NCBI RefSeq assembly: GCF_039852015.1
Contig: NZ_CP156626.1
Location: 1,212,249 to 1,276,248 of the forward strand
Length of the DNA: 64,000 nucleotides
Reading direction: 5' to 3'
DNA from: Robbsia sp. KACC 23696
GTDB taxonomy: Bacteria > Pseudomonadota > Gammaproteobacteria > Burkholderiales > Burkholderiaceae
Shown here: positions 17,690-57,552 of the stretch, in pieces
How positions within the stretch are numbered: position 1 is the first letter of the stretch
How the letters are laid out: the number at the start of each line of letters is the position of its first letter
Notes under the pieces: model-generated
What the model saw: only the letters and a program-made list of their open reading frames with translations
The model's database searches: none
Told to the model about the DNA's origin: nothing
Made by a program: the position numbers and the translations under genes

Positions 17690-18919
17690 TCAACGGCGGG
17701 CAGTGACTGCTGCCGCACGACGATCCGTAGGCGCGAGCGAGGGCTTGGTCGGGGTCGTCGCATGACGCGCCGAAGGCGCTTTGCGCGCGCGGCGCTTCAG
17801 CGAGGCGGCGATACCGGCGATGCAGAGCAGCAGCACCGTCGCCGTCACATCGTCGATCGCTCCAACGAGCCAGGGCTGGGCATTGGCGAGCGGGCGCGAC
17901 AGCGCATCGACGGATACCGAGATACATGCGCCCGCGACGAAACAGGGCAGGCTATGTTGTCCGGTGCGCACCAGCGCGGGAAGCGCGGTGGCGAGACGAC
18001 CCGCCCAGCCCCGGGCCGTGATCCAGCTTGCACACCATGCCAAGGCGGCGAAATTCAGCAGGCGGCTGACGGCCAGATTTTGCTTGTCATAGCCGGGCGT
18101 CGGTGCCGACAGGAAGAAAAGATGCCAGATGGCGAAGCCGATCACCGCGGCGACGGCCACGCGCGTGATCACCGTCGCCCAAGGGGTGGCGAGGATCTCG
18201 GCGTTCACCGGCTTGAGCCGGAAAACGGCGCCCGACACGAACATCAGTTGCCAGGCGAAGGGATTGAACGGCCAGCCTTCCGGGTAAGCGCTCGGTAAGC
18301 CTGCCGCGAGCAAGGGTGCGGCGGCCCAGACGCCGATGCTAATGACAAGCGTCAGCCAGGGCGCACGACGGGCAAGCGCCATGATTGCCGGCGCCGCGAG
18401 CGCAAACAGCAGATACATCGGCAACACCGACGACAGGAAAGGCTGGCGGCGCAAGGTGGCGATGTCGAGCAGCATGCCGAGCGGTCGGTTCAGGAAGGTG
18501 CCGGATTCAGTCGCCATCACTTCGCCGGTATCGAGCTTGAGGCCGTGGAACACCATGCCAAGCACCAGCATCATTGCCGCTAGCAACAGAAAGGCCCGGT
18601 AGATTTCGAAACCGCGTTTCAAGAATCGCTGTGCCGCGGCGCGTTCGCCTTGACGATTCAGGATGGCGGTATAAGCCGCCGCGACGGAATAGCCGCCGAC
18701 GAAGACGAACATCTCGGCGGCGTCGCAGAATGCGTAGTTATGGAGCGTGATGTGGGATGCCAGGCTCTCCGGGATATGGTCGAGCATGATGACCACCAGC
18801 GCCAAGCCGCGGAAAAAATCCACCTCGACACTGCGCCGGCTGTCCGATGAACCGGGCATGGTGCCGCGAGAGGCTGTGCTGGACGCGCTGTCCAGGGCGA
18901 CGGTGTTGCTGGCTGGCAT
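17690..18919 (-). CDS. opgC: OpgC-family membrane acyltransferase
   Basis: 409 residues with about 10 membrane helices. The N-terminal signature VDFFRGLALVVIMLDHIP and NYAFCDAAEMFVFVGGYSVA match the OpgC family, whose E. coli member succinylates osmoregulated periplasmic glucans. Whether the substrate here is the same is not known; opgGH are not in the window. GGAGA lies about 6 bases before ATG 18919, so this start is chosen over the upstream in-frame ATG at 18979. A promoter-like pair lies about 190 bases upstream. Confidence 0.85.
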   Translation of the reverse strand: MPASNTVALDSASSTASRGTMPGSSDSRRSVEVDFFRGLALVVIMLDHIPESLASHITLHNYAFCDAAEMFVFVGGYSVAAAYTAILNRQGERAAAQRFLKRGFEIYRAFLLLAAMMLVLGMVFHGLKLDTGEVMATESGTFLNRPLGMLLDIATLRRQPFLSSVLPMYLLFALAAPAIMALARRAPWLTLVISIGVWAAAPLLAAGLPSAYPEGWPFNPFAWQLMFVSGAVFRLKPVNAEILATPWATVITRVAVAAVIGFAIWHLFFLSAPTPGYDKQNLAVSRLLNFAALAWCASWITARGWAGRLATALPALVRTGQHSLPCFVAGACISVSVDALSRPLANAQPWLVGAIDDVTATVLLLCIAGIAASLKRRARKAPSARHATTPTKPSLAPTDRRAAAVTARR

Positions 18920-19103
18920 GCTTGTCTCCGTTCCGCTGTCGTCGCGACACGCCCGGCCGGGCCCTGTCGCCATCGCCAACGTGAATCTGGGTGTATCCGC
19001 GTGGCGCTGCAGTGCTGTGTGCCAATTTTGCGTTCAGACGACCCGGCATGTTTTTCACGCCATTACGCGGAATTACGCCCCGCTACCCGGCGACACCCTT
19101 ACC

Positions 19104-19165
19104 AGCCTAGAAACGATTTCTATCCGGGTCAACCCGAAGTATCGTTTGCGTAACAAAGGGTTACG
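19104..19165 (-). promoter_or_regulatory. Candidate opgC promoter with nested inverted repeats
   Basis: The 387-base gap 18920-19306 holds no gene I can support. On the minus strand TTGACC (complement of 19127-19132) and TAGGCT (19104-19109) are 17 bases apart and could be -35/-10. AAACGAT (19111-19117) and ATCGTTT (19141-19147) flank a CGGGT-CA-ACCCG hairpin over the same place, and CGTAAC/GTTACG form a repeat at 19149-19165. Confidence 0.35.
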
Positions 19166-53404: not shown

Positions 53405-53842
53405 ATGTCGGCGGGCGTGCTGTTATTGAACGAGCGCGCGGAAATCCTTTTATGCCACGCCACGGAAACCGACCATTGGGATATCCCCAAAGGGATGGCG
53501 GACCCCGGTGAGCTGCCGCGCGATGCGGCGCTGCGCGAGCTGTGGGAGGAAACGGGGCTCGTGCTCGCCGGTGCGGGACTCAGTGATCTGGGCGTCTATG
53601 CCTATCGGAGCGACAAATCGTTGCATCTGTTCGCGCAACGCGTCGCCAGCGAGGACATCGATATTGGTGCGTGTATTTGCACGTCGCTCTTCCCGAGCCG
53701 AAGGAACGGCCGCATGATTCCGGAAATGGACGAATTCGCGTGGATTGCGCTGGACGCGGTGCCGCGGTACACGGGGCGCAACATGGCGCGGGTCCTGCGC
53801 GACGACGTCAAGCTGCGCGATCTATACCGGCGACTGGCCTGA
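53405..53842 (+). CDS. Nudix hydrolase
   Basis: 145 residues. The Nudix box is complete: GMADPGELPRDAALRELWEE followed by TGL fits GX5EX7REUXEEXGU. It likely cleaves a nucleoside diphosphate linked to another group; the substrate is unknown. ATG 53405 begins just before the first beta strand (SAGVLLLNERAEILLC); the upstream frame is Ala/Gly-rich without similarity. It is convergent with the GlsB-type gene. Confidence 0.88.
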   Translation: MSAGVLLLNERAEILLCHATETDHWDIPKGMADPGELPRDAALRELWEETGLVLAGAGLSDLGVYAYRSDKSLHLFAQRVASEDIDIGACICTSLFPSRRNGRMIPEMDEFAWIALDAVPRYTGRNMARVLRDDVKLRDLYRRLA

Positions 53843-53844
53843 GT

Positions 53845-53867
53845 GGCAGCCCTCGGACGGGGCTGCC
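53845..53867. terminator. Hairpin between convergent Nudix and GlsB-type genes
   Basis: GGCAGCCC (53845-53852) pairs with GGGCTGCC (53860-53867). No clear T-tract follows on either strand. Confidence 0.35.
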
Positions 53868-53874
53868 GGAGGCA

Positions 53875-54126
53875 TTATGTGCGACGGCGCACGATGCCGT
53901 AGAGGACGAGCAGAACGATCGCGCCGATGATCGATGCGATCCAGCCGGCACCCTGGCCCGGTGCATACCAGTGCAGCGCGCGCCCGACATAGCCGGCGAC
54001 GACGGAGCCGGCGATACCGAGGACGATCGTCCATAAGAGGCCCATCTTATCGTCGCCCGGCTTCAACGCGCGGGCAAGCAGCCCGACGATCAGGCCGACG
54101 ACCACGGTTCCGATAAAAGAAAACAT
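53875..54126 (-). CDS. GlsB/YeaQ/YmgE-family small membrane protein
   Basis: 83 residues, three hydrophobic helices. SFIGTVVVGLIVGLLARALKPG and the later LLWTIVLGIAGSVVAGYVG match the transglycosylase-associated/GlsB family, often induced by stress; role unclear. AGGAG lies about 10 bases before ATG 54126. The upstream open frame to 54459 has no similarity. Confidence 0.88.
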   Translation of the reverse strand: MFSFIGTVVVGLIVGLLARALKPGDDKMGLLWTIVLGIAGSVVAGYVGRALHWYAPGQGAGWIASIIGAIVLLVLYGIVRRRT

Positions 54127-54546
54127 GACGGCGCCACTCCTTTCCATATAAGGGATCGCTCTATCTTGCCATAAGCAACCATTTGCGGTGGACGCGGTGC
54201 GTGTCGCCGCGCCGAAACATCGCGCAGCGTTACGCAAACGGTCGGGCGGTCGCGCCGACCACCCCGCGTACCGGCTAGGCGAAATCCCATTCAGCTTACG
54301 AACTTTCGTAGCGCTGCCGACCGCGCGTTCTGCATAAAATAGGGGCTTGTCAGTGCTAAGGATGACGAAGCAGTAAAGCCGTGCGGGCACGTTTTCCGGT
54401 CCTGCGTCGCGGTGCGCCAGGCGGCGACGCGCTGTCCGTCGCCGATGGCGCTGCGTCATTTTTACGCGCTACGTCCGGTGCAGGTTGTCGATGCACCATC
54501 CCGCGCGTCCGAGCGCGCGCATACATCGATCAAGGAGGCGCACCGC
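54127..54546. other. Gene-free region between divergent genes
   Basis: 420 bases. On the minus strand TTATAT (complement of 54144-54149) may be the -10 of the GlsB-type gene. On the plus strand TAAAAT near 54336 may be a -10 of the ligase-like gene. No gene is supported; the ligase-like frame is open from 54412 but its upstream codons lack family similarity. Confidence 0.4.
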
Positions 54547-55722
54547 ATGCCGATGGTGACGATTTTGTTTGGCGGGCGTTCCGTGGAATGGCGGGCATCG
54601 TGCCAAGGGTATGACCATCTTCGCGAAACGTTACGCGACGGGGCGCCCGACGATATCGTCGTGAAGGCGGTCGTTCTGATCGCGCCGGACGGTACGATCA
54701 GGATCGACAAGCCGGCGTCGCATGACAGCTTGCCGGTCGCGGCGCATCTGTTGCGGAACGGCCGCGCGATCAGTGCGGTCGAATGCATGACGGCGTTGAT
54801 GGATGGGGGCGGGATCGTGTTCTCGTTGATGCAGGCGCAGGATGGCGAAGACGGGACGTTTCACGGTCTGGCGCGGTTTTTCGATTTTCCGGATAACCGC
54901 AGTTCGACGCTGACGGCGGCGCTCGCCTTCGACCTGTATGCGCAGGCGGCCGTGGTGCAGCAGATCGCCGGTGACCTGCTGATGCCGGTGCCGACGATCC
55001 TTGCCAATATCGCCGAGCCCGACGAGGCGTATCAGGCGGCGCGGCAACGGTTTGGTGCGACGCCCGTCGTATTGCGGCCGAATGCGGCCGGTGCCGGGTT
55101 TCAGGTGCGGGCGCTGCCCTTCGTCACGCCCGACGAGATCGCCCGCTTCGCCGCCGAGATCTCGCCGTACGACGATCATTTCCTCGTTCAGCAGTGCGTC
55201 GGGGGGCTGCCCTTATCGGTTGGCGTCCTGTTTCGCGATGGCAAATGGACGGTATTGCCGATATGCGCCGGCTTGGGCGTCAGCCACAGCGAGGGCGTCA
55301 CGATGGGCGCGCGCGGCCGGCGTGGGGCGCAGGTGAAGCAGGCAATGATGACGCAGCGTACCGGTGGCGCGCCCGCTGCGGCCGGCCCCGACGACGGCAT
55401 CGCGCTACCGACGCAGTTGCCGCTGTCCGACGCGGTGCTGGCGCGGGTCGACGAGGCGGCGCGCCGCCTCGCGCGGACATTTCGCGACGAAAGCTATTAC
55501 CAGATCGATATGATCGCCACTGCATGGGGCGATGTGTATTTCTCGGCGATCTCGACGCGTCCCTCGTTGCGACGCGATGGTCCGTTCGCCTGGATGTTGC
55601 AGGCGGCAAGGATGACGCCGATCGATCTGATTCGTATCGAGCATCGCAACTACGCCGCATCGCAGGCGTTCCGACGCCAGCGCGTGGCGCGGATCGCCGA
55701 ATGGGTTGCCGTGCACGGCTGA
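54547..55722 (+). CDS. Degenerate D-alanine--D-alanine ligase-like (ATP-grasp) protein
   Basis: 391 residues with end-to-end resemblance to Ddl: FGGRSVEWRASCQ (8-20) as in FGGRSxEHxxS, DGEDGTFHGL (99-108) as in YGEDGTIQG, VVLRPNAAGAG (174-184) for VKPANLGSS, HFLVQQCVGG and LPLSVGVL (211-228) for VEQ-GREIECAVL. Key residues differ: the ATP-binding lysine is R177, the two glutamates are Q and S, and the metal motif YLLEVNTSPG is YFSAISTRPS (331-340), losing Glu and Asn. It is therefore probably not an active ligase. AAGGAGG lies about 9 bases before ATG 54547. Its role is unknown; it stands alone between a GlsB-type gene and a transporter operon. Confidence 0.75.
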   Translation: MPMVTILFGGRSVEWRASCQGYDHLRETLRDGAPDDIVVKAVVLIAPDGTIRIDKPASHDSLPVAAHLLRNGRAISAVECMTALMDGGGIVFSLMQAQDGEDGTFHGLARFFDFPDNRSSTLTAALAFDLYAQAAVVQQIAGDLLMPVPTILANIAEPDEAYQAARQRFGATPVVLRPNAAGAGFQVRALPFVTPDEIARFAAEISPYDDHFLVQQCVGGLPLSVGVLFRDGKWTVLPICAGLGVSHSEGVTMGARGRRGAQVKQAMMTQRTGGAPAAAGPDDGIALPTQLPLSDAVLARVDEAARRLARTFRDESYYQIDMIATAWGDVYFSAISTRPSLRRDGPFAWMLQAARMTPIDLIRIEHRNYAASQAFRRQRVARIAEWVAVHG

Positions 55723-55782
55723 AGCAGGCGCGGCGGTAGCCGCGTCCCCCCGTCATGATGTCAGCGCGCTGCTCGCAGCGTC

Positions 55783-57552
55783 TCACGGCGCGCGCGACGA
55801 CGTCAGACGGGATGCGATGCCGAGCAGCGTCGCGGAGACCAGAATCGACACCAGTCCCATTGCCATGCCATCGCCGATGGAGCCTTGTTCGAACTGACGC
55901 CAGACAAAGATCGAGACCGTCTGCAGGCCGCTAGGGGCGAGCAACAGCGATGTCACCAGCTCGCGCGAAGCGGTGGCAAAAACGATCATCGATGCCGCGA
56001 CCAGGGACGGCGCCACCAGCGGCAAGGTGATCCGCCATGCCGTGCGGGCGGCGGAGGCGCCGTGCACGCGCGCGGCGGCTTCCAATGACGCGCCGGATTG
56101 CCGCAACGCCATGCCTGCATAGCGGACCGGATAGGGCAGCATCAGACAGCTATACGACAGCAATAGGATGCACCACGTGCCATAGGGCGTGACCGGCCAG
56201 AACCGTTGATTCCAGGCGAGGATCAGTCCGACGGCCACGACGACGCCGGGCAACGCGTGCGGCAGCAAGCTCAGCGCGTCCAATGCAGCGCGACCGCGCA
56301 GCGTCGAACGCACCGCATACCACGCGCACGCCAGGCCCAGGGCCGCCGTCAACACGGCGGTGGCGGCCGCCAGTCCGGCGCTGGTGGCGATCGCGCTCAG
56401 CCCATCTTCGCCTTGCGAAAACAAAATGGTGAAATGCGCCGGCGTCAGGTTCGAGAGATGCAGACCGCCGGACAGCGTATGCGACAGCGCCGTGGCCAGA
56501 ATCGCGCCGAGCGGGGCCCCCGTGGCGCACAGTGCAAACAGGCCGAATAGCAGCGTCACCGGCCAGCGCCAGACGCCGAGGGCGCGTGCCGCTACCGCCG
56601 CCGGCTTGCCGTTTTCCACCGAGACATCGCGACCGGACAGCGTACGTTGCTGCAGGGCGAACGCGCCGATCGCCAGTCCGGCCAGCAGCATCGAGAGGAT
56701 CGATGCGCCGGGCAAGTCGATGGGCCAATCCGAGAAGCGCGACTCGATGGCGGTCACCAACACGGTGACGCCGGCGCGTGCCCCCAGTGCTGCCGGTGCG
56801 CCGAATTCCTCCACCGACATCGTAAAGGCCAGCAGTGCGCTGGCGGCGATCGCTGGGACGGCGAGCGGCAGCGTCACGCGTGCGAATGCGCGCCACGGTG
56901 AGGCACCATGGACGCGCGCGACGTCGGCCAGACGTCCGCCGATCTGCGCGAAGGCGCGCGAGACCGCGAAATAGACCACGGGGAACGTGGTCATCGTCAT
57001 GACGAAGACAATGCCGGTAAACGAGAACAAGGCGTTGCCGGGATGGAGGCCCGTCAGCTGCTGCAGATAGCCGGCCGGTTGCAACAGCAGCATCCAGCTG
57101 AGTGCCGCGAGATAGGGCGGAATCAAGAAGGGGATCAGGAAGAGCACGTCCCAGACGCGTGCGAACGGCAAGGCGAACAGGCCGCGCACCGCACCCAGCG
57201 CGGTCCCGATGAGCGTTGCGGCGCACGCCACCGCAATGCCGAGCCGCACCGTATTACCTAGCAGGGTCCAGGTTTGTCGTGCACCGAGCGTCGCCGGCAG
57301 CGCGGCAAATGGCTGCGTGAAGCGGCCATCGGCGAGCGCCGGGAAGATCGCCTGCAAAACGATGAAGACAATCGGCAGCGCTACCACGATCGACAAGATC
57401 AGCCACAGCAGCGCGGGCGCGATAGATGCCAGACGCACGCCGCGCTGCGGTGATGCGTCGTGCCGTGGGGACCGTCGTGCGCCGACGGGATGGTCGGGAT
57501 GTGGCCGGTTGTCGGTGTCGCGCCGACCTTGCGCGTCGACGATGTGACTCAC
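55783..57552 (-). CDS. ABC transporter permease, fused double permease (iron/phosphonate type)
   Basis: 589 residues, about 12 helices, with two MetI-like halves. Each has an EAA loop: VARVHGASPWRAFARVTLPL in the first half and ARVHGASAARTAWRITLPLV in the second. Such fused permeases are typical of FbpB-type iron(III) and 2-aminoethylphosphonate importers. It overlaps the end of the binding-protein gene by 4 bases, giving a coupled operon. Confidence 0.88.
   Translation of the reverse strand: MSHIVDAQGRRDTDNRPHPDHPVGARRSPRHDASPQRGVRLASIAPALLWLILSIVVALPIVFIVLQAIFPALADGRFTQPFAALPATLGARQTWTLLGNTVRLGIAVACAATLIGTALGAVRGLFALPFARVWDVLFLIPFLIPPYLAALSWMLLLQPAGYLQQLTGLHPGNALFSFTGIVFVMTMTTFPVVYFAVSRAFAQIGGRLADVARVHGASPWRAFARVTLPLAVPAIAASALLAFTMSVEEFGAPAALGARAGVTVLVTAIESRFSDWPIDLPGASILSMLLAGLAIGAFALQQRTLSGRDVSVENGKPAAVAARALGVWRWPVTLLFGLFALCATGAPLGAILATALSHTLSGGLHLSNLTPAHFTILFSQGEDGLSAIATSAGLAAATAVLTAALGLACAWYAVRSTLRGRAALDALSLLPHALPGVVVAVGLILAWNQRFWPVTPYGTWCILLLSYSCLMLPYPVRYAGMALRQSGASLEAAARVHGASAARTAWRITLPLVAPSLVAASMIVFATASRELVTSLLLAPSGLQTVSIFVWRQFEQGSIGDGMAMGLVSILVSATLLGIASRLTSSRAP

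Follow-up and report, generated by a model that had tools for sequence, protein, structure and literature searches.

Within the 64,000-nt stretch of the Robbsia sp. KACC 23696 genome analyzed here (the window; contig NZ_CP156626.1, positions 1,212,249 to 1,276,248), an open reading frame (ORF) at 54547..55722 on the plus strand encodes a putative pseudo-ligase related to D-alanine--D-alanine ligase (Ddl), recognized by its intact frame and start, weak matches to Ddl families and orthologues in all three Robbsia genomes. The frame comprises 391 codons for a protein of 391 aa, begins with ATG and has no internal stop. A Shine-Dalgarno sequence, AAGGAGG, can be read 8 nt upstream of the ATG (54532..54538, plus strand), so that the strong ribosome site and intact frame noted in the first-pass annotation of this DNA are both borne out. 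Purine-rich sites stand at the corresponding position in Robbsia andropogonis (cgaggagg) and in the third Robbsia genome, G015 (ccaggag). The upstream ORFs are those that we take to be znuB-znuC-znuA (minus strand), a Nudix-like gene (plus strand) and a GlsB-like gene (minus strand); downstream is a convergent set, presumably fbpB-fbpA-fbpC. Membership in an operon was rejected because the Ddl-like gene is alone on the plus strand, flanked by minus-strand ORFs. No sigma-70-like promoter was found in 53800-55900, against 0.4 expected, and none of the genes neighboring the Robbsia Ddl-like gene points to a ligand.

By profile scores, the homology of the protein to Ddl is real but weak and distant. 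It scores 49.2 bits against TIGR01205, below the cut-off of 245.65, and is likewise below the cut-offs for the Pfam domains Dala_Dala_lig_N (PF01820; 21.3 bits versus 34.6) and Dala_Dala_lig_C (PF07478; 18.8 bits versus 24). The best match among solved-structure chains is a DdlB, at E 9.8e-07. The full-length likeness to Ddl first seen by eye stands as weak homology, on the TIGR01205 score and the 342 columns of the profile comparison given below.

The genome has a separate ddl elsewhere, as the first-pass annotation proposed to check: at C1:3161861-3162811, it scores 293.3 bits, over the cut-off, and the start of the ORF directly after it, as we read it, resembles FtsQ, which fits placement in the mur/fts cluster. 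A close second copy that might serve as a partner was rejected, since a search of the genome with the window protein returned one match, itself. Another distant Ddl-like ATP-grasp ORF is found at L034:1393-2376 (G000:C2, match 18402-19154); it scores 61.7 bits to TIGR01205 and carries VKH, GREF and LEINP motifs.

To describe the residues, we use E. coli DdlB numbering, mapped through the alignments; all features lie on the plus strand. Both ATP lysines are missing. The first, K97, is L130 (codon 54934..54936) and the second, K144, is R177; in the segment from R177 to G184 (55075..55098) the glycine-loop Ser is Gly as well. The ATP-binding glutamate E187 is P222 (55210..55212). Further on (Q319 to S340; 55501..55566), Q319 replaces R255, and of the metal ligands Asp257, Glu270 and Asn272, only the Asp is kept, as D321, the others being A334 and S336. 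S340 takes the place of G276 and G345 that of S281, and no acidic residue is present at 334-340.

R177 and the AISTRPS segment at 334-340 are as originally described, but the list of losses was incomplete, with L130, G184, Q319, G345 and the omega loop overlooked. Two glutamates had also been listed as replaced by Gln and Ser. Both residues are indeed present, but reading them as catalytic losses was wrong. Gln215 stands at the Ddl E180 position; because G015 and 8/8 of the aligned non-DdlB relatives also have Gln there, it is ancestral in the clade. The DdlB of this genome has Thr at the position of S224, and the E187-type Glu falls on Pro222. The register itself is the same in MAFFT and in a separate hhalign profile comparison (probability 99.9, E 3.5e-32, 342 columns) of the window and R. 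andropogonis proteins with nine non-Robbsia relatives. Because that comparison omits the intermediate G015 sequence and yields an identical register, we rejected misalignment of the motifs; the canonical Lys, Glu and Asn do not reappear at shifted positions, the objection that the first-pass annotation had foreseen.

The N-terminal domain (residues 1-115; 54547..54891) retains the GGxSxE and GEDG motifs (G9, G10, S12, E14 and G100-G103), including E14 (Ddl E15), together with S18. Its changes include A97, beside the GEDG loop, in both the window protein and that of R. andropogonis, and, confined to the window protein, M95 and H106. The Ddl His63 position is Gln throughout this clade, and for this reason the first subsite may not hold D-Ala. 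Residues 88-129 are identical at 34/42 positions among the three Robbsia proteins. The omega-loop motif seen in the rhizobial and DdlB rows of the sequence alignment is absent, its place being taken by a variable linker (residues 246-292; 55282..55422; pN/pS 0.76, 36% identity). The C-terminal tail (residues 367-388; 55645..55710) is conserved in Robbsia, with 15/22 columns identical across the three species versus 46% identity overall. An amphipathic C-terminal helix was rejected: the hydrophobic moment was not above that of shuffles for 3/3 Robbsia tails.

The gene is found in 3/3 Robbsia genomes (the window species, R. andropogonis and G015), in each case between znuA/Nudix and groEL, and from this shared place we take the three to be orthologues. 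The R. andropogonis orthologue has the same losses as the window protein. The G015 orthologue still has both Lys residues, Glu187, the Arg, the Asp and Glu270 and is already without the N272-type Asn and the omega loop; the full loss set is thus limited to two species, the window species and R. andropogonis. Nine intact relatives share 31 invariant columns, start Met included; the window protein departs from them at 12, the R. andropogonis protein at 10 and the G015 protein at 2.

Whether the substitutions are conserved across genera had been raised as a check, and the answer is negative: no comparably similar protein was found outside Robbsia in the sampled genomes, and the rhizobial kin described below retain the canonical residues. 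The family, order and phylum samples were drawn from larger groups, with the best 4 or 5 candidates scored in most genomes. In the family sample, 50 of 398 genomes match the window protein at E 0.001, and the matches listed outside Robbsia are all partial, the best at E 1.3e-7. In the order sample 223/399 genomes match and in the phylum sample 167/398, the best other matches among those listed reaching 39.8 and 44.4 bits, respectively; among the matches listed for these two samples, neither of the other two Robbsia genomes has a row. Searching the family with a profile of the G015 protein and five rhizobial proteins gave 557 bits for G015, a score high by construction because that protein belongs to the query alignment, 216 bits each for the window species and R. 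andropogonis, and 104 bits for the next family member listed; 317/388 genomes match, mostly as ordinary Ddl would. A ZnuB search of 12 family genomes matched nine, and the surroundings were examined in eight of these, from eight other genera: 0/8 has a ddl-like match at E 1e-8 near znu in the 12-20 kb examined per locus, and 1/8 has groEL near znuA, as in Robbsia. A search of contigs recovered the orthologue from R. andropogonis and, from a planctomycete, a partial match (32%) over residues 149-229.

By sequence, the closest relatives that we found for the Robbsia proteins are not DdlB but Ddl-like ATP-grasp proteins encoded on rhizobial plasmids. The G015 protein has long matches at 34-37% identity on seven rhizobial plasmids; 463 of 72,556 plasmid records match it in all, many of them van ligases. 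The window protein finds the same seven rhizobial records first (24.9-26.5% identity, E 4e-23 to 8e-20), among nine matching records in total. In a midpoint-rooted tree of 29 rows, 26 of them different, the three Robbsia proteins group at 100/100 and join five rhizobial proteins at 100/99, apart from the ordinary Ddl rows, although the tree program flags a meeting of long branches at the Robbsia group. Annotations of the rhizobial kin vary among D-alanine--D-alanine ligase, ATP-grasp domain-containing and hypothetical protein. A phage origin was rejected: the G015 protein matches 11 of 50,697 phage records, with identities (23.4-31.4%) lower than those of the rhizobial matches. A scan of viral contigs with one pattern gave 110 stretches, with no confirmed relative among them.

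The plasmid loci carry suggestive neighbors. Directly upstream of the ligase gene, panD (aspartate decarboxylase) is present in 3/5 rhizobial loci, one of which has a full-length alanine racemase gene directly downstream, a linkage suggestive of beta-alanine or D-alanine as a substrate of the ligase. The three panD loci are L065:11409-15776 (NZ_AP023255.1), L064 and L067; in L065 the ligase gene also precedes the alanine racemase and a P1-family peptidase. A route to a beta-alanine or D-alanine dipeptide is possible at such loci. On a Rhodococcus plasmid (L068:7941-11362, NZ_CP083976.1), a Ddl-like gene and genes for a PLP-dependent enzyme, a C39 peptidase and an M15 metallopeptidase stand in a row reminiscent of a dipeptide make-and-cut set. 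On pBPHY02 of Paraburkholderia phymatum (L069:7983-15820), a Ddl-like gene adjoins a MATE efflux gene and a 4.3-kb AMP-binding gene. No panD match was found at E 1e-6 in the window or in L043, L044 or L045.

Since the G015 orthologue retains most catalytic residues, most of the loss occurred inside the genus, and since it is already without the Asn and the omega loop, the path looks stepwise: the lid and one metal ligand would have been lost first and the rest on the stem of the sister pair. Among 95 columns identical in G015 and the five rhizobial proteins, 26 are changed in both other Robbsia species, which agree on the new residue in 24, and five further columns are changed in one species only. 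The ATP, metal and C-terminal catalytic columns are changed at 8/10 versus 18/85 for the others (Fisher 0.0004), a stricter catalytic list gives 6/7 versus 20/88 (0.0015), and the enrichment weakens to 8/15 versus 18/80 (0.019) when the subsite residues of the N-domain are included among the catalytic ones; these figures are guides, not proofs, because the columns share a single history and are not independent events, and the list was drawn up after the substitutions were known. The 95 columns do not include N272 and S281, since variation is already present at these positions in G015 or among the rhizobial rows. By region, the changes common to both species take up 3/36 columns of the N-domain, 15/35 of the central part and 8/24 of the C-terminal part. 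The stem was also long. The ratio of the stem plus mean tip to the G015 tip is 3.25 for the Ddl-like gene versus 1.55 for znuB, 0.86 for znuC and 0.97 for znuA (LG+G4 trees of 10, 11, 11 and 8 rows, respectively), and a tree under another model gives a stem of 1.0 and a G015 tip of 0.13.

Faster change on the stem, and a linker whose length and sequence vary freely, are what a gene in decay might show, its frame intact only because the loss is recent. We regard this as very improbable. The losses are common to both species, with 24/26 of the changed columns carrying identical new residues, yet between the two species dN/dS is 0.109 and pN/pS 0.213 over 391 codons, albeit at a dS of 1.35, near saturation. 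Eight of the nine neighbor genes compared have dN/dS values of 0.069-0.170, and groEL is at 0.015. In 2,000 runs of a neutral simulation, in which the third-position changes of the same gene pair were applied to all sites, 4.3 stops arose on average and 1.4% of runs had none; the gene itself has 0. Moreover, the start and the Shine-Dalgarno site are kept. The argument against decay made earlier from frame and ribosome site is thus strengthened by the shared losses in R. andropogonis and a dN/dS like that of the neighbors. Catalytic residues are gone here from a gene that purifying selection still maintains, as in a pseudo-enzyme, and because the full losses are seen in two species only, the case for maintenance rests on one pair. 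Within the protein, pN/pS is 0.194 for residues 1-115, 0.114 for the central ATP-grasp residues 116-245, where constraint between the pair is strongest, 0.76 for the linker and 0.149 for residues 293-391.

The constraint on residues 116-245 bears on the choice, left open in the first-pass annotation, between a pseudo-enzyme and an ATP-grasp ligase with a new chemistry. Under the latter, R177 and other residues would bind ATP, D321 and other residues would bind metal, and different substrates would be joined; likeness to Ddl is kept along almost the entire protein (342 aligned columns), the former ATP-grasp segment is the most constrained, and a fast stem could mark the change. Against this, the protein jointly lacks the two ATP lysines, the glycine-loop Ser, the E187-type Glu, the R255-type Arg, two of the three metal ligands and the omega loop, and 334-340 offers no acidic residue. 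Given these joint losses, we favor the pseudo-enzyme and consider an active ligase of changed chemistry quite unlikely. A pseudo-ligase might instead be a regulatory subunit that pairs with DdlB and tunes it. Ddl proteins act as dimers, to which the N-terminal half contributes in known structures; that half has the fewest stem changes here, and DdlB is encoded by a separate gene. However, the nearest kin found belong to a distant clade, not to DdlB, for which reason a shared interface is not expected, and we think such a subunit unlikely.

The reading that we prefer, and hold to be likely, is that of a young pseudo-ligase that keeps its N-terminal half and acts by binding. Deprived of both ATP lysines, of two metal ligands and of the R255-type Arg, the protein should not form the acyl phosphate and presumably can no longer ligate. 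The loss of ligase activity proposed at the outset gains support from the shared losses, the dN/dS of 0.11, the intact frame and the separate DdlB. The N-domain of Ddl gives the dimer its shape and binds the first amino acid, at a subsite where the E15-type Glu and the GEDG loop lie; the retained N-terminal half, which has both, may bind a dipeptide or a single amino acid, or else a partner such as DdlB. A variable linker in place of the omega-loop lid would mean that the site should stay open. A role of the N-domain by itself does not account for the constraint on 116-245, which indicates that the former ATP-grasp part matters too, perhaps as a scaffold. The maintained protein thus probably has a binding or regulatory role. 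We offer more tentatively, as a possible but doubtful extension, that a plasmid-type amino-acid ligase became an ATP-free ligand sensor within one genus: G015 would represent the partly intact enzyme, and the locked version in the sister pair would bind and report the same ligand, an amino acid or dipeptide. Since a single genus has a partly intact orthologue and a dead one, both lying between znuA and groESL, the order in which the chemistry was lost and a new role gained could be followed directly.

Compared with Ddl as defined by TIGR01205 and by PF01820 plus PF07478, the Robbsia protein is alike in domain order, in the GGxSxE and GEDG motifs and in the metal Asp. It is unlike Ddl in falling below the curated cut-offs, in its replaced ATP and metal residues and in its missing omega loop, and the label D-alanine--D-alanine ligase can land on such a protein although it is probably unable to make the dipeptide. 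The rhizobial-plasmid proteins, the nearest group in the tree (for example, WP_199201542.1 of Mesorhizobium sp. 131-3-5), share with the Robbsia proteins Gln at the His63 and Glu180 positions. In contrast, they keep the K97, K144, E187, R255, D257, E270 and N272 types in 5/5 aligned, and panD, which adjoins their gene in 3/5 loci, was not found near the Robbsia gene. Pseudo-enzymes are already known as a kind, and we found no case in the Ddl family among the open-licence papers listed by our searches. A parallel among ATP-grasp-type ligases is TTLL12, which resembles tubulin-tyrosine ligase, has ATP-grasp-like motifs and reportedly does not catalyze the expected reactions; being eukaryotic, of another family and equipped with a SET-like domain, TTLL12 serves as a precedent only.
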